In this document: positions 4,086 to 50,399 of the stretch, one piece after another | Numbering within the stretch: the stretch's first letter is position 1 | Layout: every line of letters starts with the position of its first letter | NCBI RefSeq assembly: GCF_030409225.1 | Contig: NZ_JAUFPK010000007.1 | Coordinates: 237,169 to 301,168, forward strand | Reading direction: 5' to 3' | From: Aquisalimonas lutea | Lineage (GTDB): Bacteria; Pseudomonadota; Gammaproteobacteria; Nitrococcales; Aquisalimonadaceae | DNA length: 64,000 nucleotides | Made by a program: the position numbers and the translations under genes | The notes under the pieces: model-generated | The model's input: only the letters and a program-made list of their open reading frames with translations | What the model was told of the DNA's origin: nothing | Database searches by the model: none

Positions 4086-4776
4086 TTCCGGGACGCGCCG
4101 GCCGCCGGTGCTGGCCGTGGATACCGCCACGGACGCCTGTTCCGTGGCCGCCGGCGCCGGGGGCGCCGAGGCCTGGCGCCATGCCGTGGCCCCCCGCGGG
4201 CACGCCGCCCGCGTACTGGCCATGATCGACGAGGTGCTCGCCGAGCTGGGCGTGCAGGTGGCGGATCTCGGCGGCGTGGCCTGGTGCCACGGCCCCGGCG
4301 CGTTCACCGGGGTTCGTATCGCCGCGGGCGTGGCGCAGGGCATCGCCTGGGCCCATCGCCTGCCGGTGATCGGTGTCTCGACCCTGGCGGTGCTCGCACA
4401 GGGGGCACACCGGCGCTTCGGTGCGACGCGTGTGCGCGTGGCCATGGATGCGCGCATGGGCGAGGTCTACTGGGGCGAGTACGCCCTGGAGGAGGCGAGT
4501 GCACTCATGCGCGCGACGGCCGCGGATCGCGTCTGCCGGCCGGAAGCGGTCCCGGAGGCCGGTGCCGGCGAGGCCTGGGGCGGGGTGGGCACTGGCTGGG
4601 GCGCCTACGGCGAGATCCTGGCGGCCCGCTGCCCGGGCCCGGAGCGGCTCGATCCGGAGGCGCTGCCGGATGCCCGGGACCTGATTCCCCTGGCCCGCGA
4701 GCGCCTGGAGCGCGGTGACGTCGTTGCGGCGCGGGATGCCGTGCCGGTGTACCTGCGTGACCGCGTGACGGGGTGA
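4078..4776 (+). CDS. tsaB: tRNA threonylcarbamoyladenosine biosynthesis protein TsaB
   Basis: Partner of TsaD in adding threonylcarbamoyl to A37 of ANN-decoding tRNAs, in the cytoplasm. The 232-residue protein opens with VLAVDTATDACSVA, the actin-like ATPase phosphate loop of the family, followed by GVAWCHGPGAFTGVRIAAG, the TsaB signature. The ATG at 4078 is preceded by AGGAGGAAGG and overlaps the end of the MFS gene by eight bases. RimI, often adjacent in other gammaproteobacteria, is elsewhere (23,765). Confidence 0.94.
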   Translation: MADSGTRRPPVLAVDTATDACSVAAGAGGAEAWRHAVAPRGHAARVLAMIDEVLAELGVQVADLGGVAWCHGPGAFTGVRIAAGVAQGIAWAHRLPVIGVSTLAVLAQGAHRRFGATRVRVAMDARMGEVYWGEYALEEASALMRATAADRVCRPEAVPEAGAGEAWGGVGTGWGAYGEILAARCPGPERLDPEALPDARDLIPLARERLERGDVVAARDAVPVYLRDRVTG

Positions 4777-4815
4777 GATCCGGCTTGTTCGCCGGGGCGG
4801 AATGCGATAAAAATA

Positions 4816-4831
4816 GAGCGAGCGCTCGCTC
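4816..4831. promoter_or_regulatory. Perfect 16-bp palindrome, candidate TetR operator
   Basis: GAGCGAGCGCTCGCTC is a perfect inverted repeat 25 bases before the start of the phosphatase gene and lies in the only noncoding stretch in front of a run that includes a TetR regulator (5,566). Local TetR regulators often bind such sites; the pairing with this regulator is inference. Confidence 0.5.
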
Positions 4832-4855
4832 GATAAGCGGGCCAAGGGAAGCAAC

Positions 4856-5569
4856 GTGAGAGGGAGCATGGGCGAAATCCACCTGATCCGGCACGGCCAG
4901 GCCTCCTTCGGCAGCGATGACTACGATCGCCTCTCCGAGACGGGGCGGCAGCAGTCGCTGCTGCTGCGCGATCACTGGCGCGCGCTCGGCCTGCGGTTCG
5001 ACGTCATCTACTGCGGCCTTCTGCATCGCCAGCGCAGTACCGCGGGCATTCTCATGAGCGGGGAGCTGGCCCCGGAGTGGCGCCAGTCCGCGTGCCTGGA
5101 CGAGTTCGCCCATCAGCCGGTGCTGCGGGCGTGGGCCCGGCGGCTGCGGGAGCAGGACCCGGACAGCATGCCCGACCGGGACGTGCTCAACAGCGACCGG
5201 CGCGTGTTCCAGCGTTTCTATACCGAGGCCATGATGGCCTGGGTGGACAACCGCCTGACGCCGACGGAGGGCCTGGAGCCGTGGAGCGCGTTCCGCGAGC
5301 GCTGCGAGGGGGCGCTGGACGAGCTGCTGGCCGAGCAGGTACCGGGGGCGCGGATCGGCGTGGTGACATCGGCCGGGGTGATCGGTGTGCTGCTCGCCCG
5401 CGTGCTCGGCCTGGACAGCGCCATGGCGGTGCGCATGGGCTGGACCATCTACAACAGCTCCCTGACGCGCCTGCGCATCGGCCGCTCCGGCCGCATCAGC
5501 CTGCTGGACTTCAACAGCGTGCCGCACCTGGAACACCCCGACCGCGCCGAGATGATCACGTTCCGATGA
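4856..5569 (+). CDS. Histidine phosphatase superfamily protein
   Basis: Cytoplasmic phosphoglycerate-mutase-like phosphatase. The catalytic RHG motif is at the start (IHLIRHGQASFG), and VVTSAGVIGVL near residue 165 stands where the second catalytic histidine (usually SHG) belongs; a serine-alanine here makes the second histidine hard to place. The GTG at 4856 follows AGGGA at six bases; an ATG four codons later (4868) is also possible. It is the first gene of a run with a TetR regulator, an acyl-CoA dehydrogenase and two oxidoreductases. Substrate unknown; the context suggests a role linked to acyl-CoA metabolism. Confidence 0.82.
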   Translation: MRGSMGEIHLIRHGQASFGSDDYDRLSETGRQQSLLLRDHWRALGLRFDVIYCGLLHRQRSTAGILMSGELAPEWRQSACLDEFAHQPVLRAWARRLREQDPDSMPDRDVLNSDRRVFQRFYTEAMMAWVDNRLTPTEGLEPWSAFRERCEGALDELLAEQVPGARIGVVTSAGVIGVLLARVLGLDSAMAVRMGWTIYNSSLTRLRIGRSGRISLLDFNSVPHLEHPDRAEMITFR

Positions 5570-6276
5570 CCACGCCGTCGGCCCATGCAGGCTATCCCGC
5601 GTTCCACCGGCAGGTGTGCAGCCGCCGGGACGACTACATCCGCGAGGTGTTCGCGCGGCACCAGGAAGCCATCCGCGTGAAGAAGGAATCGGTGGTCGTC
5701 CGCAAGCTGGCCGCGATCTTCGACAAGACCCTGGAGATCAGCAACCGCCACGGCTTCCAGGCCATGAGCGTACGGGATCTCAGCGAGGCCACCGGCATCA
5801 GCATGGGCTCGCTGTACTCGTACATCGAGAGCAAGGAACGGCTGCTGGGCATGATTCTCACCTATGGCCACGTGGTGGTGGACCATACCCTGCGCATCCC
5901 GGAGGCGCTGACCGGGCCGCGGGAGCGGCTGCATCACGTGCTGCGCACCCACGTCTATATCACCGAGGTCATGCAGCCGTGGTTCTACTTTTCCTACATG
6001 GAGTCGCGCCACTTCGACCGCGATACCCGGGAGCAGACCATCGCCGGCGAGCTCCGCACCGAGCGGCTGATCGCGGATCTTCTGGACGAGGGCGTCGCGC
6101 AGGCCGTCTTCCCCGTGCGCGACACGGGCCTCACGGCGGCGCTGATCAAGCCGCTGCTGCAGGAGTGGTACCTCAAGCGCTGGAAGTACCGGCGTCGCGG
6201 AATCGGCGTGGACGACTACGCTGACCGCATGATCGCCTTCGTGGACGCGGCCCTGAACGGGGCTGCGGAGACGTGA
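5566..6276 (+). CDS. TetR/AcrR family transcriptional regulator
   Basis: Dimeric repressor. The helix-turn-helix lies near residues 55-95 (HGFQAMSVRDLSEATGISMG, then SLYSYIESKERLL), after a longer N-terminal arm than usual. The rest is the all-helical ligand-binding domain. The ATG overlaps the stop of the phosphatase gene (ATGA), so the two are translated together. By position it likely controls the acyl-CoA dehydrogenase run, with an acyl-CoA as a plausible ligand; the palindrome at 4,816 is the candidate operator. Confidence 0.9.
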   Translation: MTTPSAHAGYPAFHRQVCSRRDDYIREVFARHQEAIRVKKESVVVRKLAAIFDKTLEISNRHGFQAMSVRDLSEATGISMGSLYSYIESKERLLGMILTYGHVVVDHTLRIPEALTGPRERLHHVLRTHVYITEVMQPWFYFSYMESRHFDRDTREQTIAGELRTERLIADLLDEGVAQAVFPVRDTGLTAALIKPLLQEWYLKRWKYRRRGIGVDDYADRMIAFVDAALNGAAET

Positions 6277-6340
6277 AGCCGCCGGGGGAGAGCCCCATGG
6301 ACGACAACGCAGTCGACGGCCCCGGCCGCAGGAGGGCGCA

Positions 6341-8143
6341 ATGGACGAAACGCTGATTTGTCGTCGTGATCTGGATTTCCAGCTCTACGAGGTCCTGGAT
6401 GCCGAGCGCCTGATCCAGCGCGAGCGCTACCGCGAGCACGGCCGCGAGACCTTCGATGCGGCCGTGGAGACGGCGCGGCAGATCGCCGCCGAGCAGTTCG
6501 CGCCCCACAACCGCAAGGGCGACGAGCACGAGCCGGCGTTCGTCGACGGCCGCGCCCGGACCATCCCGGAGACCAAGGCCGCCTGGCGGGCGTACGCCGA
6601 GGCCGGCTTCCTGGCGGCCCACCACGATGCCGCCGCCGGCGGCATGCAGCTGCCGGCGCTGATCCAGCAGGCCTGCCAGGCGCATTTCTACGCGGCCAAC
6701 ATCGCCACCACGGCGTATCCGATGCTGACCATCGCCGCCGGCAACCTGCTCCGGGCCCACGGCAGCGAGGCGCAGAAGGCGCGCTGGCTGCCGCCGCTGC
6801 TGGACGGGCGCTTCGCCGGCACCATGGCGCTGACCGAGCCCCACGCGGGCTCGTCGCTGGGCGACCTGCGCACCCGGGCGATTCCGCAGGACGACGGCAC
6901 GTACCGCATCGTCGGCAACAAGATCTACATCTCCGGCGGCGACCAGGACATCACGGACAATATCGTCCACATGGTCATCGCCCGTATCCAGGGGGCGCCG
7001 CCGGGGGTCAAGGGGATCTCGCTGTTCATCGTGCCGCGCTACCGCCTGGACGAGCGCGGCGAGCCGGCCGAGGACAACGACGTCGCCCTGGCCGGCCTGC
7101 TGCACAAGATGGGCTACCGCGGCACCACCTCCACGGTGCTGAACTTCGGCGACCGGGGCGACTGCCACGGCTACCTGGTGGGCGAGCCCAACAAGGGCCT
7201 CGCCTACATGTTCCACATGATGAACGAGGCGCGCATCGGCGTCGGCGTGGGGGCTGCCATGCTCGGCTACACGGGCTATCTCCACAGCCTGGCCTTCGCG
7301 CGGCAGCGTCCCCAGGGCCGGCCCGTGACGGCGAAGGGCGAGGGGCCGCAGGTCGCCATCATCCGCCACCCGGACGTGCGCCGCATGCTCCTGGCGCAGA
7401 AGGCCTATGCCGAGGGCGGCATGGCGCTGTGCCTGTACGCGGCGGCGCTGTTCGACGACAGCACCACCGCCCCGGAGCCGGAGCAGCGCCGGGAGGCCCA
7501 GGAGCTGCTGGACCTGCTCACCCCCGTGGTCAAGGCCTGGACGGCCGAGTACGGCTGCCGGGCCAACGACCTGGCCATCCAGGTCCTCGGCGGCTCCGGC
7601 TACACCCGGGACTACCCGGTGGAGCAGTTCTACCGCGACAACCGGCTGAACCCCATCCACGAAGGCACCAACGGCATCCAGGCGCTGGACCTGCTGGGCC
7701 GCAAGATGCACCACAACGGCGGCGCCGGGTTCCGGGCGCTGCTGGCCCGGGTGGATGCGACCATCGACGAGGCCCGGGGCCTGGAGACGGCCGCACCGCT
7801 GGCCGACGCGCTGCGGCAGGCGCGATCGACCGTGGCGGCGACCGCGGACACCCTCGGCGAGGCGTTCGCCACCCACGGCCCCGAGCGGGTGCTCGCCAAC
7901 GCGTCCGTGTACCTGGATCTCGTCGGGCGGTTCGTGGTCGCCTGGCTGTGGTTGCGCCAGGCGCGTGTCGCCGCGGCGGCGCTGGCGGACGGCGTATCCG
8001 GGGCGGAGGAGGGCTTCTACCGGGGCAAGCTGCAGGCCGCCCGGTACTACGTGGACTGGGAGCTGCCGCACATCGAGCAGCAGGGTCGCCTCCTGTGCCG
8101 GCTGGATGACACCTGCCTGGGCATGCAGGAGGACTGGTTCTGA
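6341..8143 (+). CDS. Acyl-CoA dehydrogenase, large (DmdC-like) form
   Basis: FAD enzyme of 600 residues that oxidises an acyl-CoA to the 2,3-enoyl-CoA. Domains in order: an N-terminal extension, the helical N domain, the FAD-binding beta domain (ALTEPHAGSSLGDLRTRA), the helical C domain with the canonical catalytic glutamate in NPIHEGTNGIQ, and an extra C-terminal domain of about 130 residues found in the 600-residue DmdC-like group. AGGAGGG five bases before the ATG fixes the start. The chain length and type of the substrate cannot be read from sequence. Confidence 0.9.
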   Translation: MDETLICRRDLDFQLYEVLDAERLIQRERYREHGRETFDAAVETARQIAAEQFAPHNRKGDEHEPAFVDGRARTIPETKAAWRAYAEAGFLAAHHDAAAGGMQLPALIQQACQAHFYAANIATTAYPMLTIAAGNLLRAHGSEAQKARWLPPLLDGRFAGTMALTEPHAGSSLGDLRTRAIPQDDGTYRIVGNKIYISGGDQDITDNIVHMVIARIQGAPPGVKGISLFIVPRYRLDERGEPAEDNDVALAGLLHKMGYRGTTSTVLNFGDRGDCHGYLVGEPNKGLAYMFHMMNEARIGVGVGAAMLGYTGYLHSLAFARQRPQGRPVTAKGEGPQVAIIRHPDVRRMLLAQKAYAEGGMALCLYAAALFDDSTTAPEPEQRREAQELLDLLTPVVKAWTAEYGCRANDLAIQVLGGSGYTRDYPVEQFYRDNRLNPIHEGTNGIQALDLLGRKMHHNGGAGFRALLARVDATIDEARGLETAAPLADALRQARSTVAATADTLGEAFATHGPERVLANASVYLDLVGRFVVAWLWLRQARVAAAALADGVSGAEEGFYRGKLQAARYYVDWELPHIEQQGRLLCRLDDTCLGMQEDWF

Positions 8144-40020: not shown

Positions 40021-40078
40021 GCCACAATTTCTCGATAACACCCCCCAGTACCAGGGGTGCCCGTCCCGGGAGTTTTCC

Positions 40079-41326
40079 ATGGACAGCTCGTCTCTGTTTC
40101 TGACCTTTCTCGTCGTCGCCGTCGAGGTCGCTATTGTCTCGGCCGCGCTCGGAGGCGTGTCCTGGTGGCTCTACCGTCGGGCCTTCACCGAGGCCCAGGC
40201 GTTCAAGTCCGAGAAGCGCCACCTGATCCAGCGTCGCGACGCGCATCTGCGGTTTCTCAAGGAGCGTATCAGCAACCTCGACATGCGCCGCCACCGGCAG
40301 AAGGGCGCCGAGTCCCGGCTCGAGAACCTGGAGCGCCGCATCCTGGAGGAGGACAAGACGCACACCGAGGCCGCCCAGAACCGCGACGCCGAGATCTGGG
40401 ATCTGCGCACCACATCCACTAAGTCGCTCATCGACACCGTTCGCGCCATGGACCCGAACGCCCTCGACGGTGCGGGGTCCACCTCCGGCACCAAGCAGGA
40501 CACCAACCACGCACTTCGGCGTAGCCTGAAAGAGCGCGACGAGCAGGCCGAGCGCCAACGCCGGGAAATCCAGCAGCTATCGCCGTTTCGCGATGCCTGG
40601 CTGCGTCTGCACCGCTATGCTCAGCGCGAGAGCGCCGAGAACGTCGCCTTGCGCGAGACGTTACGCGGCCTTTCGACAGACCCGGCAACGGCGAAAGCCA
40701 TTCAGGACGCCCTGCAGACCTACGCCAACGACCGGGCCGCTCTTGACGACTACCTGGAGGCCACGGCGGCAAGCTTCGACGATGCCAGCCCGAAGCAAGC
40801 ACAGCGGGCTCGGCGACGGCAACAGCGCATGGATCGCATGCACAAAGTCGTCGACACGGCGTCATCGCGCATGGATGCGGCCAGTCAGAAGTTCCCGGCC
40901 GTGCTCAACGACCAGAACGAGGCGATCTCCGATCTTGAGTTCAAGCTCGAGCGCGCCGAGCAGGCCCAACAGGTGATCCGCCAGAACTACAGCCGCGAGA
41001 TCCAGCGGCTGAAGAAAAACAACCAGGATGCCGAGAGCACCGCCCGCAGCCTGGAGAAGGAGAACCGCCGACTGCGCCAGCGGGTGCGCAATCTCATTCG
41101 CTTGAGCCAGGAAGAGAACACAAGCTTCGTCCCCGCCGCCCAGAACCAGGACACCAGCAAGGAACAGGAGGATGACGCACGCAAGGACGCAGAACTCGAC
41201 CGCCTCCATCAAGCTCTGCGCCAGGAACGGACGAAGACGGAGCACCTGGAGAAGCAGGTCGAGAAGTATCAGGCTTTGGAAGCGGCGATCCACTCAACAC
41301 TGCATGACGACCCCATCTCCTCTTGA
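40079..41326 (+). CDS. Membrane-anchored coiled-coil protein
   Basis: An N-terminal transmembrane helix (FLTFLVVAVEVAIVSAALGGVSWWLY) is followed by about 370 mostly charged, helical residues with long coiled-coil stretches (heptads rich in Glu, Arg, Gln), the cytoplasmic side if the positive-inside rule holds. GGGAG six bases before the ATG at 40079. No enzyme domain seen; could be a scaffold for the surrounding signalling proteins. The following 318 bases (41,327-41,644) hold nothing recognisable. Confidence 0.75.
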   Translation: MDSSSLFLTFLVVAVEVAIVSAALGGVSWWLYRRAFTEAQAFKSEKRHLIQRRDAHLRFLKERISNLDMRRHRQKGAESRLENLERRILEEDKTHTEAAQNRDAEIWDLRTTSTKSLIDTVRAMDPNALDGAGSTSGTKQDTNHALRRSLKERDEQAERQRREIQQLSPFRDAWLRLHRYAQRESAENVALRETLRGLSTDPATAKAIQDALQTYANDRAALDDYLEATAASFDDASPKQAQRARRRQQRMDRMHKVVDTASSRMDAASQKFPAVLNDQNEAISDLEFKLERAEQAQQVIRQNYSREIQRLKKNNQDAESTARSLEKENRRLRQRVRNLIRLSQEENTSFVPAAQNQDTSKEQEDDARKDAELDRLHQALRQERTKTEHLEKQVEKYQALEAAIHSTLHDDPISS

Positions 41327-43591: not shown

Positions 43592-44680
43592 TTGAGTTTT
43601 CGTCGGAAAACGTGCTCACACCAGCAGTGGTCTTTTACCCCGGCCCGGTTCGTCCGAGTCCTCGCTGCACGGTGTTTCGCATGCGTCATCGCGTTAATCA
43701 CCGGTGAAGCGGCCATCGCGAACGACGCTGGCGCAGAGATTCGCGTGGCCGGCGTGTCCTATCTCGGTGATCTGCCCACGGTCATCGCGGACCGCCGGGA
43801 CTACTTTCGCGCCGACGGGAACACGATCTCGGTTGCATATTCGAAGTCGGGACAAGAGAACTTGGCGCGCCTGCGCAGCGGAGAAACCGATTTCGCCCTG
43901 ATGGCGCTCACGCCCCTCACCCTGGACTTCATCGCCGATGAAACACCCGGCCAGCCCGATGATCCGGTGATCCTCGCAAGCTTGGTGCACTCCACGCGCC
44001 TCAACCAGGTCGTCACCCTGGAGGGCTCCGGCATACGCAACCCCGACGACCTGCGCGGCCACCGCGTTGGGCTCATGCGCGGGACGAACGCGGAGTTCAT
44101 TTGGTGGCTATTCGCGACCTACCACCAAATCGGGCCTGACGACGCGGTGTTGAGTGACCAACCCACGTCGGCACTATCCGATGCTCTGGTCGAAGGCGAT
44201 ATTGACGCGGCGGTGCTGTGGGAGCCCTGGACGTCGCGACTGCGGGAGCGCGTCGGCGAACGCGTCCGCGTTCTGCCAGGGAGCAACCTGTACACAGCAA
44301 AGTGGGTACTTGTCGCACAACGGCGCACGATCAATGAGAACCCCGAAGTCGTCGAAGCCCTTTTCAAAGGGTATCAAAGGGCAATCGCGTTCATCACGAA
44401 CAGGCCAGATACGGCCATGCGCACCTATGGACGCCACACGGAAACGGAGATTCGCCATGTCGAGGCCCAGTGGCAAGCACTCGACTTCCATCTGAACCTG
44501 AACTGGACGGTAATCGCCACCATACAGCAGCAATTGGATTGGGCGCGGAGCGCGGGCTACGAGATGGCTAATCCGGAAGTGCGCGTTCGCGACCTCATCG
44601 AAGCGGGACCACTGCGTTCTCTTGCCCCCGGAGTCGTCGGCGTGCCCGATCACACCGGAAGCCGTGAGGACGTGCAGTGA
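43592..44680 (+). CDS. Periplasmic substrate-binding protein, NMT1/SsuA-like
   Basis: Type II periplasmic binding protein. A signal-like segment (RFVRVLAARCFACVIALIT) precedes the domain beginning EIRVAGVSYLGDLPTVIADR; FALMALTPLTLDF, VGLMRGTNAEFIWWLF and AAVLWEPWTSRL fit the nitrate/sulfonate/thiamine-precursor binder group. No permease or ATPase follows. Instead its stop overlaps (GTGA) the start of a membrane GGDEF-EAL protein, so it likely serves as the sensor for that protein. No ATG fits; the TTG at 43592 is my best start. Confidence 0.7.
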   Translation: MSFRRKTCSHQQWSFTPARFVRVLAARCFACVIALITGEAAIANDAGAEIRVAGVSYLGDLPTVIADRRDYFRADGNTISVAYSKSGQENLARLRSGETDFALMALTPLTLDFIADETPGQPDDPVILASLVHSTRLNQVVTLEGSGIRNPDDLRGHRVGLMRGTNAEFIWWLFATYHQIGPDDAVLSDQPTSALSDALVEGDIDAAVLWEPWTSRLRERVGERVRVLPGSNLYTAKWVLVAQRRTINENPEVVEALFKGYQRAIAFITNRPDTAMRTYGRHTETEIRHVEAQWQALDFHLNLNWTVIATIQQQLDWARSAGYEMANPEVRVRDLIEAGPLRSLAPGVVGVPDHTGSREDVQ

Positions 44681-46761
44681 GGCTGATCCACCTGTCCATC
44701 GCCAGCATTGTCTTCTGTCTTGTCGGCCTCGTCGTGCTCGCGGTGGTCGCCGTGACGAGCATCCATCGGATGGAGACAAAAAACGCCGAGATCGCGGAAC
44801 TGCTTGAACTGAGCAAGCGGATCGACGACATCTCTGCCGCCAGCGACAGCCTGCTGCTCTTTGGCGCCGATCCGGATTTGTGGGAGGCGTTCCAGGCCGA
44901 CCTCCGCCGGATCCAGGAGCGCCTGGAGCGCTTCGACACGTCCTACCCCAATGCAGCACAGGGTGCCAGGCAAATCGCCCTTATCCACGAGGTGCTACGC
45001 TCAGCCGCAGCGAGTGATGCACAGCCGGCCTCCCCCGAAGGGAGCCGGTCCAGCCGTGCATTGTCGCCGCTGGACATCTCAGCGCGTAGCCGCATTATCA
45101 TGAATCAGGTCGCAGGCCACGGTATCGCGCTCGACCAATCCCTCGATCGCCTGGTCCGGAAGCGCCGCGAGGACATCGCCCAGGAGTCCCGCTGGATTAC
45201 CGGGACGTTCGCTGGCTCCGCCCTGTTGTTTGGTGGCCTCTGCGTCGCCGCCTTTGGCCTGATCCATCACCGCCTCGGTGGGCCGGCACACTCGATCGCG
45301 CAAACCGTCAACCGGGTGCGAAGGGGCAACCCGAACGCAAGAGCGCAGATACGGGGCACGGACGAAATGGCGATGCTGGCCGGCAGCATTAACGATTTGC
45401 TGGACGAGCAGCAGCAAGCGCAAGCACGCCTGGACGAACAGCAGCAAAAGCTCAATCGGCTTGCCTATGACGACCAGCTCACAGGCCAGCTCTCCCGCAA
45501 TGGGTTCATTCGAGCTGTCACCGAGCGATTGCAGATGGAGGGCTGGCAACGTGCCACCACCATGGTCATGCTGGACATCGACGACCAATGGAACATCAAC
45601 GACGCCCATGGCTACGCCTCCGGGGACGCCTTCCTCGTCCGGGTTGGCGAACGCCTCATGAGCGCCGCTGGCGAGAACGCCCTGGTCGGGCGTGTTGGCG
45701 GCGATGAGTTCGTCGTTTTCCTTCCTGCGAACGACGAAACGTCTGCTAGCGAGATGCGATCGGCGTTGGGTGCGGCCTTTGATGCACCGTTTTCGCTGAG
45801 CGGCCTTTCCGTCGAAGCGAACGCCCATTTTGGATACACCGAGCTCGGCGATCGACAGCGGGAGCCGGAGACAGTCCTGCGGGAGGCAGAACTCGCGCTG
45901 TTCCACGGACGCGAGAACGCCGGCGGCCAGTGGTTCGCCTATACGGAGAGCCTCTATGAGACAACGCGCCAGCGCATCGACATTGTCCAGGAGCTACGCA
46001 ATGCGCTCGTCAACGACGAGTTCGAGCTTCACTTCCATCCGAAAGTCGTCCTAAAGACCGGGGAGGTGGCCGGCTGCGAAGCGCTCGTGCGCTGGCACCA
46101 CCCCGAGCGCGGTTTGCAGTCACCGGCGGTCTTTGTCGAGATCGCCGAGCAAAGCCAGCTCATGATTCCCATCGGTGAATGGGTCCTGAACGAAGCTTGC
46201 CGGCACCTGCGGGAATGGCATGACGCGGGGTTCAATGTGGGCCACATGGCCGTCAACGTCTCCCTCGTCCAGTTCCAGGTCGGTGACTTTACGCAGACCG
46301 TTCGCGACGCGCTTGAACGCCACCGACTCCCGCCCAACGCGCTCACGCTCGAGATTACGGAAAGTGTCTTCGCGCTCGAATCGGCCGAGCTTCTCAATCA
46401 ACTGCGCGAGTTGCGCGAGCTGGGTGTGCGTTTGTCACTGGATGATTTCGGTACGGGTTATTCGTCCCTGATGTACTTGCAGAAATACCCGTTCGACGAA
46501 ATCAAGATCGACAAGGGGTTTGTGCGCGACATGCTGGAGGATCGCTACAGCCACGCAATCGTGCGCATCGTGATGAACCTCGCCGAAACGCTTGAAGCCA
46601 GTGTCATCCCCGAGGGCGTGGAGACGAAGGCGATGCAGGATGCTCTGATTGCTCTCGGATGCCATATCGGTCAGGGCTTCTACTACAGCGTCCCCTTGGA
46701 GAGCGAAGACTTCCGCTGGCTTCTGGACCACCGCTCGCCGCTTCCCTTGCCGCGCACATGA
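44677..46761 (+). CDS. Membrane HAMP-GGDEF-EAL cyclic-di-GMP protein
   Basis: Two membrane helices (residues 5-27 and about 176-198) bracket a periplasmic helical domain; HAMP, GGDEF (GRVGGDEFVVFLP) and EAL (GCEALVRWHHPERG) follow. EAL catalytic residues are all present: NVSLVQF, LEITES, LDDFGTGYSS, IKIDKGF, IPEGVET. The GGDEF has no clear RxxD site. So phosphodiesterase activity is expected and cyclase activity possible. GTG start overlaps the binding-protein stop, with GAGGA upstream. Its periplasmic domain could contact that binding protein. Confidence 0.87.
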   Translation: MRLIHLSIASIVFCLVGLVVLAVVAVTSIHRMETKNAEIAELLELSKRIDDISAASDSLLLFGADPDLWEAFQADLRRIQERLERFDTSYPNAAQGARQIALIHEVLRSAAASDAQPASPEGSRSSRALSPLDISARSRIIMNQVAGHGIALDQSLDRLVRKRREDIAQESRWITGTFAGSALLFGGLCVAAFGLIHHRLGGPAHSIAQTVNRVRRGNPNARAQIRGTDEMAMLAGSINDLLDEQQQAQARLDEQQQKLNRLAYDDQLTGQLSRNGFIRAVTERLQMEGWQRATTMVMLDIDDQWNINDAHGYASGDAFLVRVGERLMSAAGENALVGRVGGDEFVVFLPANDETSASEMRSALGAAFDAPFSLSGLSVEANAHFGYTELGDRQREPETVLREAELALFHGRENAGGQWFAYTESLYETTRQRIDIVQELRNALVNDEFELHFHPKVVLKTGEVAGCEALVRWHHPERGLQSPAVFVEIAEQSQLMIPIGEWVLNEACRHLREWHDAGFNVGHMAVNVSLVQFQVGDFTQTVRDALERHRLPPNALTLEITESVFALESAELLNQLRELRELGVRLSLDDFGTGYSSLMYLQKYPFDEIKIDKGFVRDMLEDRYSHAIVRIVMNLAETLEASVIPEGVETKAMQDALIALGCHIGQGFYYSVPLESEDFRWLLDHRSPLPLPRT

Positions 46762-46818
46762 CACTGCACTGGATGGGGGCAAGCGATCTACACTTTGAAA
46801 CATGCGACGGAATCGATC

Positions 46819-48549
46819 ATGACCACGCACACGTCGAGACTGATCAAGCAGCCGACACACATTGCCGGACTCGACGCACTCACCGTAGGCGGCCTTCCGG
46901 CGAGCGGGACCACCCTGGTTATCGGACAGCCATCGGCGGGCAAGACGGTTCTCGGACTGCAACTGCTCGCCGAAGCCCTTGACCAGCAAGAGGGTGGAAT
47001 CTTTGTTTCCTTCGAAGAGTCTCAGGAGCAAATCCGCCGCAGCACCGAATCCTTCGCTTGGGGCGCTCACCTCACGAACGCCGACGAAGTCCGGTTCATT
47101 GATGCCCGCCCACCGATGGAGGCGACGGCGGCCGGTGCGTTTGATCTGGAGGGCTTGCTCGCTCTCATTGCTGCGCAAGCCGAACAAGGCCGCACCGCAT
47201 GGGTCGTATTCGATGGCATCGATCAGCTCCTGCGCATGCAGCCGGATGAGCATACGGCGGCGATGCAGATTCGTCATCTCGACACGTGGTGCCGGGACAA
47301 AGGCCTCGCCGCCATCCTCACGGCAAAACAAACGTACGCCGGCCGAACCGAGGCCGCGTACCTTGAGGGCGTCGAGTTTCTGTTGTCCACGATCCTCGTT
47401 CTGTCCACTGAACTCGTGGGGCGCCGACTCAACCGGCGCTTCCGCATTGCGAAATACCGCGGCAGTGCCCACGAGACCGACGAAGTCGCCATGGTGCTCG
47501 ACAACGATGGCATCCACTTGCCTTATTCGCCCCACGGTGAAGGGATGCAGAGAGCGCAATCCATCCGCGTGGGCTCCGGGATCCCCCGTCTCGACAGCGT
47601 CCTCGGTGGGGGCGTCTACTGCGGCTCAAGTATCCTGATCTCGGGCCAACCCGGCACGGCAAAGACCACGCTTGCCGTGTGCTTTGCGCAGGCGGCAGCC
47701 CAGCGCGGCGAGCGTGTTCTGTACATCAGCTTCGACGAGCTCGCTGACCGCATCGTGCGCAACGTCTCCTCCGTAGGAATCGACTTGCAGCCGCAACTCG
47801 ACAAAGACCTACTGCACATCGAGTCGCGGGAGGCATGGAGTGCCCTTGTCGAAGAGCACTACATTGCCATCGTCAACCTGCTCGATCAGCTCAACCCGGC
47901 GTGCGTCGTCATCGACCCCGTGTCCGCCTTGCTGAAAGCCAACAGCGCCGAGAGCGCATTTGATACCACGGAACGCCTGATCGCCCTGTTTCGCAGGCGA
48001 GGGATCACAACGATCCTGACATCCCTATCTGAGCAAGGTGACGTCGACAACGAATCTACGCTGAGTCACGTCTCGACGCTAGCGGATACCTGGATCACGC
48101 TTGACTATCGCATTCACGGCGGTGAGCGAAACCGTGCCTTGTCGGTTGTGAAATCCCGCGGCTCGGCGCACTCCAACCAGGTCCGGGAGCTGTTGCTCTC
48201 GGACGCCGGGCCGGATCTTGCCGATGTCTACGAGTATGGATCCCAGGTGCTTATGGGGACCGCCCGAGTCCAAAAAGAAAGCGAAGAGGCAGCCAAGAGC
48301 CGGGCTCAAAGTAACGAAAGGGACCACCGTCGCCGCACCCTGCAGCGGGAGTTGGAGGCGGCCCGTCTTCGTCGTCAAGACGCCGAGAACGAAGCCCAGC
48401 GCTACCAGGACGAACTCGACCGGGAAGAGCGCGAGGCCAGAGAAGCGCAACAGGAAAGCGATACGCATCAGGGCAGCGTCATTCGGCGACGCGACCCAAG
48501 CGATCAAGCCCGACCCTCGCCAGACCGCTGGCAGGACGGGGAGAGCTAA
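46819..48549 (+). CDS. kaiC: KaiC-like double-domain ATPase
   Basis: Two RecA-like KaiC domains. CI: Walker A GQPSAGKT (36-43), paired glutamates 66-67. CII: GQPGTAKT (276-283), where Ala replaces the usual Gly, and Asp-Glu at 306-307. LSHVSTLAD at 415-423 aligns with the KaiC autophosphorylation site, keeping Ser419-Thr420. A charged coiled-coil tail of about 75 residues replaces the short cyanobacterial tail. ATG 46819 has GGA upstream; the TTG at 46795 is less likely. Five bases separate it from the KaiB-like gene. No KaiA, as in other non-cyanobacteria. Confidence 0.88.
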   Translation: MTTHTSRLIKQPTHIAGLDALTVGGLPASGTTLVIGQPSAGKTVLGLQLLAEALDQQEGGIFVSFEESQEQIRRSTESFAWGAHLTNADEVRFIDARPPMEATAAGAFDLEGLLALIAAQAEQGRTAWVVFDGIDQLLRMQPDEHTAAMQIRHLDTWCRDKGLAAILTAKQTYAGRTEAAYLEGVEFLLSTILVLSTELVGRRLNRRFRIAKYRGSAHETDEVAMVLDNDGIHLPYSPHGEGMQRAQSIRVGSGIPRLDSVLGGGVYCGSSILISGQPGTAKTTLAVCFAQAAAQRGERVLYISFDELADRIVRNVSSVGIDLQPQLDKDLLHIESREAWSALVEEHYIAIVNLLDQLNPACVVIDPVSALLKANSAESAFDTTERLIALFRRRGITTILTSLSEQGDVDNESTLSHVSTLADTWITLDYRIHGGERNRALSVVKSRGSAHSNQVRELLLSDAGPDLADVYEYGSQVLMGTARVQKESEEAAKSRAQSNERDHRRRTLQRELEAARLRRQDAENEAQRYQDELDREEREAREAQQESDTHQGSVIRRRDPSDQARPSPDRWQDGES

Positions 48550-48554
48550 GCATA

Positions 48555-48848
48555 ATGTCCCAGGTTCAGAGCGCAAACACGACACTCACGCTACTCGTTG
48601 CCGGGCACGCGCCGCGCTCCGAGCGCGCCCGCGCTCATCTCCACGCGATACTTCGCGAAATCGGTCGCGACGTCGAATCCGTACGCGAGATCGATCTACT
48701 GCAGGAGCCGCTACTCACCATCGAGTACGGGATCTTCGCCACACCCGCCCTGATCCGTGAAGATGCTGCGGGCTCGCGGACCATTCTGTATGGCGAGCTG
48801 TCGGATACTACGGGCCTGCGCCGCTTTCTCCTCGACAGCGATGGGTAA
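48555..48848 (+). CDS. kaiB: KaiB-like protein
   Basis: A 97-residue thioredoxin-like KaiB domain: TLTLLVAGHAPRSERARAHL at the start, VREIDLLQEPLLTIEYGIFATPALI in the middle with the cis-proline motif, then ILYGELSDTTGLRRFLL. In cyanobacteria KaiB switches fold to bind the CI ring of KaiC; with a KaiC homologue directly upstream a physical partnership is likely. The 474 bases after it (48,849-49,322) hold no gene I can support. Confidence 0.85.
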   Translation: MSQVQSANTTLTLLVAGHAPRSERARAHLHAILREIGRDVESVREIDLLQEPLLTIEYGIFATPALIREDAAGSRTILYGELSDTTGLRRFLLDSDG

Positions 48849-49322: not shown

Positions 49323-50399
49323 GTGAACAATCGTAGTCGACAACAGACCGAGTTCAGTCCGATTTCACGCCTATGCCAATGGCTACGACGGCAATTCATC
49401 CACAACGATCAACGCACATCGTTGGTAAGCGTTTTTCTTACGGCTTTGGGTGCCGTCGCCTTGGTTTTCGGCGTATCCAATCTCCTCTATTTTGATCTTT
49501 ATCTGCTCGGACTCATTGAACTCGCTTTCTTTGCAGGCATTGTTGCCGGTTTAATCGATCTTCGTCGCAACAAGGCAATCAATCGTGTCTCCTGGTTGGC
49601 TGTGATCGCTTTTGGCGGAATTTCCCTGATTTTCTATGGGCTCATTCAGGGGGCATATGACGCGTCGGTCTGGCTGTTGTGGTTTCCCTTTGTCGCCTTC
49701 TCTCTCCTCGGGACGCGACGTGGGCTCAGCGCTGTAGCCGTTTATGGCCTGATCGTCATCGGCATCATTCTCGTCAACTTTTGCCAGTGGCCATCGATTA
49801 GCGACGTCGAGACTATATCGAACATCCTCGGCGCCATGACAGCCATCATCTGGATGACGTTCTATCAGGCGCGTATTACGGAGCGAGCCTACCATCGCAT
49901 CTCGGAACTCGCGCACACCGACGTACTGACTGGTATCTCGAACCGGCGATCATTTGTCCAGCAGTTCGACACAGCCCGAGCAGCGCGAGCAACACGTCAC
50001 CGGCGAGGCGCCTTGCTGTTGGCGGACATCGACAACTTCAAGGAGATTAACGACACCCACGGCCATGCAGCAGGTGACGCGGTAATCAAGGAAGTAGGTG
50101 ATCGGATAGCCACTGCGGTCCGGCAGGACGACATTGTCGGACGACTTGGGGGCGAAGAGTTTGGTGTGCTCCTAATGGACTGCGACGTTGACGAAGCCGT
50201 TGCGCGGGCGGACGAACTCCGAATCCGTATCGCGGGCGAGTCTATTGCAGATGAGTTCCAAGTTACCGTCAGCATTGGCGTTGCTTCGATCAACGGATCT
50301 TGCGATGAATTTGCGGCAGTGTTCGCCGCAGCCGATGAGGGCCTGTACAAAGCGAAGGCGGCTGGGCGGAATCGAACGGTATTCGCTAGTTCTCGATAA
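49323..50399 (+). CDS. Membrane diguanylate cyclase (GGEEF)
   Basis: Five to six N-terminal membrane helices (about residues 35-180, a 7TM/MASE-like sensor) lead into a GGDEF domain with GRLGGEEFGVLL and the inhibitory site RQDD five residues before it, so an active, feedback-controlled cyclase is expected. GTG start at 49323; ribosome site weak. Separate from the Kai operon by 474 bases. The next 233 bases are empty. Confidence 0.85.
   Translation: MNNRSRQQTEFSPISRLCQWLRRQFIHNDQRTSLVSVFLTALGAVALVFGVSNLLYFDLYLLGLIELAFFAGIVAGLIDLRRNKAINRVSWLAVIAFGGISLIFYGLIQGAYDASVWLLWFPFVAFSLLGTRRGLSAVAVYGLIVIGIILVNFCQWPSISDVETISNILGAMTAIIWMTFYQARITERAYHRISELAHTDVLTGISNRRSFVQQFDTARAARATRHRRGALLLADIDNFKEINDTHGHAAGDAVIKEVGDRIATAVRQDDIVGRLGGEEFGVLLMDCDVDEAVARADELRIRIAGESIADEFQVTVSIGVASINGSCDEFAAVFAAADEGLYKAKAAGRNRTVFASSR

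Follow-up and report, generated by a model that had tools for sequence, protein, structure and literature searches.

Introduction

To our knowledge, little has been established about the output of KaiB/KaiC systems outside cyanobacteria. In the XylFII-LytS and TorT-TorS systems, a binding protein docks on a periplasmic helical bundle and the output is a histidine kinase. Here we analyzed four adjoining genes of Aquisalimonas lutea, encoding an exported binding protein, a membrane protein with GGDEF and EAL domains, KaiC and KaiB, which lie in a stretch of 64,000 nucleotides (contig NZ_JAUFPK010000007.1, positions 237,169 to 301,168 of the forward strand; hereafter the window). The closest described systems are summarized here. 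Cyanobacteria apart, almost all kaiBC clusters compared in 2011 had kaiC or kaiB directly followed by a gene for a histidine kinase or a GGDEF/EAL protein (PMC3164672). The coiled-coil KaiC of Rhodobacter sphaeroides was described in 2023 as an hourglass that runs on the ratio of ATP to ADP, with the coiled-coil tail tied mainly to a kaiC2 subgroup that has two serines (PMC10076222). In Synechococcus elongatus, changes in cyclic di-guanosine monophosphate (c-di-GMP) affected rhythms, while the binding of KaiB to KaiC in vitro was unchanged by c-di-GMP (PMC13001216). MbaA of Vibrio cholerae has SGDEF and EVL motifs, yet displays both activities, synthesis and breakdown (PMC8967002). The unit in the window is real, conserved and built from known kinds of parts, with a phosphodiesterase lineage and a matching KaiC clade at its core.

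Results

Layout of the locus

The initial annotation of this DNA had described four genes on one strand, and this description held at every junction: the genes for the binding protein and the sensor protein overlap by 4 bases, and gaps of 57 and 5 bases separate the GGDEF-EAL gene from kaiC and kaiC from kaiB, respectively. Pfam also bore out the reading of the second product as a HAMP-GGDEF-EAL protein, of the third as a two-domain KaiC, in which the expected Ser-Thr pair was found at residues 419 and 420, and of the fourth as KaiB-like. The features are as follows (window coordinates, strand, identity and basis, with Pfam E values where given).

43592..44680, + strand: NMT1/THI5-like exported solute-binding protein (Pfam NMT1, 8e-18); the start codon (TTG at 43592) is a guess from sequence
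44677..46761, + strand: membrane helical-bundle sensor-HAMP-degenerate GGDEF-EAL protein, 694 residues (Pfam, alignments, tree)
44677..45261, + strand: sensor part of this protein, residues 1-195, consisting of a hydrophobic helix, a periplasmic helical bundle and a hydrophobic helix (alignment and AlphaFold2 model; membrane helices read from sequence)
45262..45408, + strand: HAMP domain, residues 196-244 (Pfam, 1.5e-6)
45466..45915, + strand: degenerate GGDEF domain, residues 264-413 (Pfam, 1e-22; signature residues lost)
45988..46695, + strand: EAL phosphodiesterase domain with catalytic motifs, residues 438-673 (Pfam, 7.5e-70)
46819..48549, + strand: two-domain KaiC, 576 residues (Pfam KaiC ATPase in two stretches, 1.7e-71)
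48073..48078, + strand: KaiC Ser419-Thr420 phosphorylation pair (alignments)
48268..48546, + strand: KaiC C-terminal extension, 93 residues, with a predicted helix at 474-555 (PDB alignment, structure model)
48555..48848, + strand: KaiB, 97 residues (Pfam, 1.7e-8)
49323..50399, + strand: MASE6-GGDEF diguanylate cyclase, duplicated together with the unit in this genome (Pfam; 84% identical copy behind a second unit)

A phosphodiesterase lineage paired with one KaiC clade

The stable core of the unit is a distinct EAL phosphodiesterase lineage whose genes immediately precede kaiC genes of a matching clade, followed by kaiB. In a collection of loci made around KaiB, KaiC and the sensor, one that favours Kai loci, 20 GGDEF-EAL genes were found directly upstream of a KaiC like that of the window. 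A tree of 37 GGDEF-EAL proteins, unrooted and drawn from its midpoint, placed these 20 together with five relatives in one 25-row clade (support 100/100), separated by a branch of 0.99 from the 12 others; among these 12, six have a KaiC of another kind nearby. In the KaiC tree, the partner KaiCs likewise fell into one clade of 22 rows (100/99), 20 of them linked to the GGDEF-EAL lineage; the remaining two are L092, which has no such gene, and L089, where part of an EAL gene lies immediately upstream, at the edge of the contig. The sensor domain in the genome of L089 (G308) lies at the end of another contig, suggesting that its EAL gene was probably cut in two. The reading frames of KaiC and KaiB overlap by 4 bases in 15 of the 20 linked loci. 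For these counts, we dropped L056 and L163 from alignment, tree and overlap counts, being the same places as L040 and L057, and left out L088 (G371), whose KaiC is cut by a contig end, and L169, whose EAL and KaiC frames are broken and fall below the score limit; L089, with only a piece of the EAL gene and no GGDEF, was kept out of the EAL tree but entered the KaiC tree, from which KaiCs under 400 residues were excluded.

Searching 369 genomes for the EAL lineage alone, with up to four candidates scored per genome (members may therefore be missing, and the cut gene of G308 was below the limit), we recovered seven members at 634 bits or more, the next score being 439. KaiC directly follows four of the seven, one lies about 1.1 kilobases (kb) beyond KaiB in G202, and two (G397 and G382) have no Kai gene in the stretch seen. 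The KaiC link of this lineage is strong but not obligatory. The G202 gene (L091, 4566-7547) is a second member of the lineage at that locus, with PAS domains and on the same strand; one Kai locus may thus serve two phosphodiesterases.

Recurrence in other genomes

Loci arranged in the same way occur in a sister genus and in two more families, with identities of roughly 40-55%, so the arrangement is not unique to this strain; such uniqueness was part of one condition under which the initial annotation's idea of a system would have failed. When GTDB was scanned with two strict peptide patterns for the binding protein, two named loci emerged, each carrying all four genes in order: the Ectothiorhodospiraceae metagenome-assembled genome CSSed165cm_312 (L056), which we took to be the same place as L040 (G009:C27) in a genome of the window's family, and Halomonas urumqiensis (L057), where the unit thus resides in a named strain, BZ-SZ-XJ27. 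The full order is also present in G187 (L090), from another family of the class. Within the family of H. urumqiensis, the sensor domain occurs in 12 of 275 genomes; KaiC and KaiB follow the sensor gene in ten of these 12 (L169 with broken frames), are not found after it in L164, and in L170 the contig ends 833 bases past the sensor gene, with no KaiC match in that stretch. Three of the 12 sensor loci carry the binding protein (L163, L171 and L172); at L165 the contig begins 518 bases before the sensor gene and no piece of a binding protein is found there.

Wider sampling returned the sensor domain in 6 of 54 genomes of the order and 6 of 369 of the class, each count including one weak match, and in 2 of 398 genomes of the phylum, namely the own genome and one weak match. 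Searches in the families of G187 (one genome) and G371 (three genomes) yielded no new case; in the family of G202 (three genomes) all cases were already known, apart from one further weak match in G397. Four sampled congeners, one of them only 82% complete, had neither KaiB nor the sensor domain. Two halomonad loci show apparent decay of the unit, with sequencing error possible in both: in L169 (3967-8615, G914) the EAL and KaiC frames are broken, and in L173 (3904-4167, G844) only an 87-residue fragment, weakly matching the binding protein, is left upstream of the sensor.

Residues of the GGDEF-EAL protein

EAL phosphodiesterases depend on the catalytic motifs E(AL), N, E, DD, K, E and Q, while active GGDEF cyclases carry, besides GGDEF itself, the signature FK, GH and AK..GR, with residues that act in substrate binding. 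No EAL motif is missing from the window copy or from any of the 25 lineage members. The GGDEF domain of the window has QW and GY at the FK and GH positions and has lost AK..GR, with the GGDEF motif itself intact; in the alignment, the FK, GH and AK..GR signature is lost in all 25 members, and 11 halomonad members have lost the GGDEF motif as well (SGDQF or similar). This combination predicts c-di-GMP hydrolysis without synthesis. The protein is therefore probably devoted to c-di-GMP breakdown, not to two-way turnover, and the "cyclic-di-GMP turnover" of the initial annotation should read "probably hydrolysis".

KaiC and KaiB

The best PDB match of KaiC is R. sphaeroides KaiC (8dba, E 2.5e-82), to which it aligns over residues 10-555, tail included, up to residue 544 of 8dba; the model places a helix at 474-555 in this tail, with moderate confidence (mean predicted local distance difference test, pLDDT, of 63). 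All 11 aligned KaiCs (window plus ten relatives) and all 20 linked ones have the Ser-Thr pair. Canonical CII motifs comprise a Walker A of the form GxxxxGK[ST] and a Glu-Glu pair. In CI, the window protein has the Walker A GQPSAGKT and FEES, and the Glu-Glu pair is kept in 20 of 20 linked KaiCs; in CII, it has GQPGTAKT and FDEL, a Walker A with Ala or Ser and Asp-Glu in place of Glu-Glu being found in 20 of 20. Given this altered active site, phosphorylation of KaiC cannot be assumed. The KaiB domain scored 34.5 bits against a Pfam cut-off of 27, and its best PDB match is 8fwj chain M (E 1.4e-6), from an entry with the same KaiC as the R. sphaeroides entry 8fwi. There is no kaiA among the four genes, to which this search was confined.

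Sensor domain and binding protein

AlphaFold2 modelled the N-terminal 245 residues of the sensor protein as all-helical (mean pLDDT 78), and we read sequence and model together as two membrane helices with a putative periplasmic bundle between them. Foldseek ranked NarQ first (E 0.0098), with no match below 0.001, and a second comparison gave XylFII-LytS (5xsj) a Z of 12.6, NarQ 12.3, QseE 10.7 and TorS-TorT (3o1j) 10.4; designed bundles score alike, and thus the likeness in fold is a hint only and was discarded as proof. The sensor in front of the EAL enzyme is exchangeable, being either PAS domains or a membrane helical bundle, with or without a binding protein. Among the six linked loci without the membrane sensor, the five run through Pfam (L041, L044, L045, L047 and L048) have PAS domains instead, and at some other loci PAS domains come after the membrane sensor.

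The binding protein has a signal peptide, as read from sequence, and its Pfam matches comprise NMT1, NMT1_2 and a sub-threshold Phosphonate-bd only, with SsuA, TauA and THI13 as weak relatives in the PDB. A polyamine-type binding protein is PotD-like, and no such match was among those obtained by Pfam. Of the 14 KaiC-linked loci that encode the membrane sensor, 7 also carry the gene for the binding protein, as do none of the six that lack this sensor (related loci, for which no probability is claimed); the gene overlaps the sensor gene by 4 bases in six of the seven. With 7 of 20 linked loci in total, the notion that the binding protein is always needed was rejected. In ten genomes chosen for having the sensor, all eight strong matches to the binding protein lie just upstream of a sensor gene, the remaining 13 being weak, at 1.4e-15 or worse; G202, G308 and G397 have the sensor and no strong match. 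The pair also occurs without adjoining KaiBC, in G008 with the sensor on a PAS-GGDEF-EAL protein, and in G010 (L121, 6984-9383) with the sensor at the head of a HAMP-PAS-histidine kinase-receiver protein and the binding protein upstream; the contig of G005 breaks off within the sensor protein. We read binding protein and sensor as a portable two-protein receptor, and we see mix-and-match evolution in one sensor family being joined to phosphodiesterases, whether or not KaiBC is adjacent, and also to a histidine kinase.

Second copy and neighbouring genes

The genome, 16 contigs totalling 4.2 Mb (megabases), contains a second four-gene unit on contig C1 (L009). Between the copies, protein identity is 85% for the binding protein, 94% for GGDEF-EAL, 93% for KaiC, 88% for KaiB and 84% for the MASE6 cyclase that follows, and the ratio of nonsynonymous to synonymous substitution rates (dN/dS) lies between 0.10 and 0.31 in each of the five, at a dS of 0.2-0.4 (for the binding protein over 331 codons, the first 31 left out). 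Both copies have therefore been kept by selection for some time, and the second copy is under purifying selection.

The MASE6-GGDEF cyclase (window 49323-50399; L009 3111-4208) was duplicated with the unit and is also under purifying selection. No relative covering its MASE6 part was found at the other loci examined, and it was set aside as a member of the general unit; in this genome it could be a synthesis partner, supplying the c-di-GMP that the EAL protein removes. At L165 (5122-6195, G906), a GAF-GGDEF cyclase begins 51 bases after KaiB on the same strand, with a sensor part unlike that of the MASE6 cyclase. The seven neighbouring proteins run through Pfam, namely PAS-GGDEF and MASE6-GGDEF cyclases, a GAF protein, a 416-residue protein assigned to no family and three enzymes of metabolism, include no transporter component, in agreement with the initial reading of a periplasmic binding protein without a transporter.

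The 416-residue protein (window 40076-41326) has a hydrophobic N-terminal stretch followed by a long, charged, coiled-coil-like part, as read from sequence. A second copy, 82.5% identical, is found at L010 (9155-10405; about 115-116 kb on G000:C14); both copies are on contig C14, each about 1-6 kb from a KaiC gene. L010 also holds a third KaiC of this genome (6806-8263; 485 residues), which is without the long tail and has Ser-Tyr at the phosphorylation site; the gene after it on the same strand (4500-7130) encodes a GAF-GGDEF-EAL protein that keeps FK, GH, GGDEF and AK.

Discussion

We propose, with confidence that is about evenly divided, that these genes form a conserved four-gene signalling unit in which a sensor of an outside ligand acts on a c-di-GMP phosphodiesterase coupled to KaiB/KaiC. 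The genes would be cotranscribed, and the secreted binding protein, having no role in import, would dock, in either its ligand-bound or its ligand-free form, on the membrane protein's periplasmic helical bundle. The HAMP domain would relay this change to the GGDEF domain, which is predicted to have lost c-di-GMP synthesis and would in turn set the activity of the EAL domain, a predicted c-di-GMP phosphodiesterase. We surmise that KaiC, whose two ATPase domains would form a ring bearing a coiled-coil tail of the Rhodobacter type, constitutes with KaiB a slow switch dependent on ATP/ADP, which, possibly via contact between KaiC and the enzyme, would either gate the same phosphodiesterase or be gated by it, the response then depending on the outside ligand plus the energy or time state of the cell. 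The sequences themselves establish that order and overlaps are conserved, that the unit is duplicated, and that residue patterns and clades correspond as described. Linkage and the matching clades are what point to a coupling of KaiC with the enzyme, and that the switch keeps time is a guess. A bolder version, a ligand-resettable KaiBC timer with c-di-GMP as output, in which the KaiC ring physically gates a dedicated phosphodiesterase and interchangeable sensors suit different niches, is one that we entertain tentatively and with some doubt; if it were true, a non-cyanobacterial bacterium would read time or energy state as the level of a second messenger.

Several observations weigh against the proposed unit: 1) the binding protein is absent from 13 of the 20 KaiC-linked loci; 2) the EAL enzyme can exist without KaiC, which follows four of the seven members found independently of Kai genes; 3) the CII motifs of KaiC are altered throughout the linked set; 4) the modelled helical-bundle matches of the sensor are within background; 5) the unit is patchy and absent from the four sampled congeners; and 6) MbaA, active in both directions despite its SGDEF and EVL motifs, shows that residue calls can mislead. 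The initial annotation had put forward a system joining ligand sensor, c-di-GMP and KaiBC; its conserved unit stood, the order being recurrent, whereas synthesis by the GGDEF domain is unlikely, the binding protein is optional and CII departs from the canonical form.

Some of these same observations could be explained otherwise. The altered CII residues, together with the dodecamers made by the R. sphaeroides tail (PMC10076222) and the tie of Legionella pneumophila KaiC2 to stress (PMC5520375), would fit KaiB/KaiC proteins that keep no time and instead act as an ATPase scaffold or stress switch, assembling the phosphodiesterase into dodecamers or clusters; retention of the Ser-Thr pair in every aligned and linked KaiC and of the CI Glu pair in the linked 20 speaks against this explanation, which we consider rather doubtful. 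The direction of signalling might also be reversed, with the sensor protein serving as Kai input, such that ligand and c-di-GMP breakdown set the state of KaiC, and KaiC/KaiB act elsewhere. The order sensor-KaiC-KaiB fits either direction, and sensor types are exchanged while KaiC is constant, but c-di-GMP left KaiB-KaiC binding unaffected in vitro with the S. elongatus proteins (PMC13001216), and no other gene was seen to recur beside the unit at the loci examined, an observation made without a systematic test; we deem this reversal unlikely.

We hold still less with an active GGDEF domain in a protein that is bifunctional in the manner of MbaA: the window copy retains the motif itself, and an altered motif does not keep MbaA from working (PMC8967002), but the remaining signature is gone from all 25 lineage members and GGDEF itself from the 11 halomonad ones. 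Chance or hitch-hiking neighbours with no functional link would account for the patchiness, with KaiB and sensor in none of four congeners and the sensor in 12 of 275 genomes of one family, but not for the same order and overlaps across several families and two matching clades, and this explanation is very improbable in our view. Under the proposed unit, then, the EAL lineage paired with one KaiC clade represents a measurable candidate output, c-di-GMP, of a non-cyanobacterial KaiBC, with binding protein and sensor domain as its candidate input. The pairing of lineage and clade, the degenerate GGDEF domain and the exchangeable sensors make c-di-GMP a testable KaiBC output.

The initial annotation regarded the unit as unfamiliar. 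We found no description of the combined four-part unit in the open-access literature, most subscription papers being outside the search; the KaiBC-GGDEF/EAL link is not new, having been reported in 2011 (PMC3164672). The 2011 clusters resemble the present loci in having GGDEF/EAL genes beside kaiBC outside cyanobacteria, but these are downstream of kaiC or kaiB, vs. upstream of KaiC here, and the passages of text drawn on contain no binding protein, membrane sensor, dedicated lineage or loss of GGDEF (PMC3164672). With the KaiBC of R. sphaeroides, the unit shares a two-domain KaiC with a long coiled-coil C-terminal tail, a KaiB partner and the lack of a KaiA gene in the operon; they differ in that the R. 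sphaeroides KaiC has Ser-Ser, whereas that of the unit has Ser-Thr, Ala or Ser for Gly in the CII Walker A and an Asp-Glu pair, and in that the partner gene there encodes a histidine kinase (PMC5520375), as opposed to GGDEF-EAL. NspS-MbaA of V. cholerae, the model for such control, is alike in that a periplasmic binding protein controls a membrane GGDEF-EAL protein, and in the window the two corresponding genes adjoin; however, NspS binds polyamines while the binding protein of the unit is NMT1/THI5-like, MbaA is bifunctional, and the passages on NspS-MbaA mention no KaiBC (PMC8967002). To the sensors of XylFII-LytS and TorT-TorS, the predicted sensor bears a weak likeness in fold (5xsj, Z 12.6; 3o1j, Z 10.4) that is within the helical-bundle background, and in contrast to their histidine kinase output, the sensor of the unit sits on a GGDEF-EAL protein, yet in G010 on a hybrid histidine kinase.

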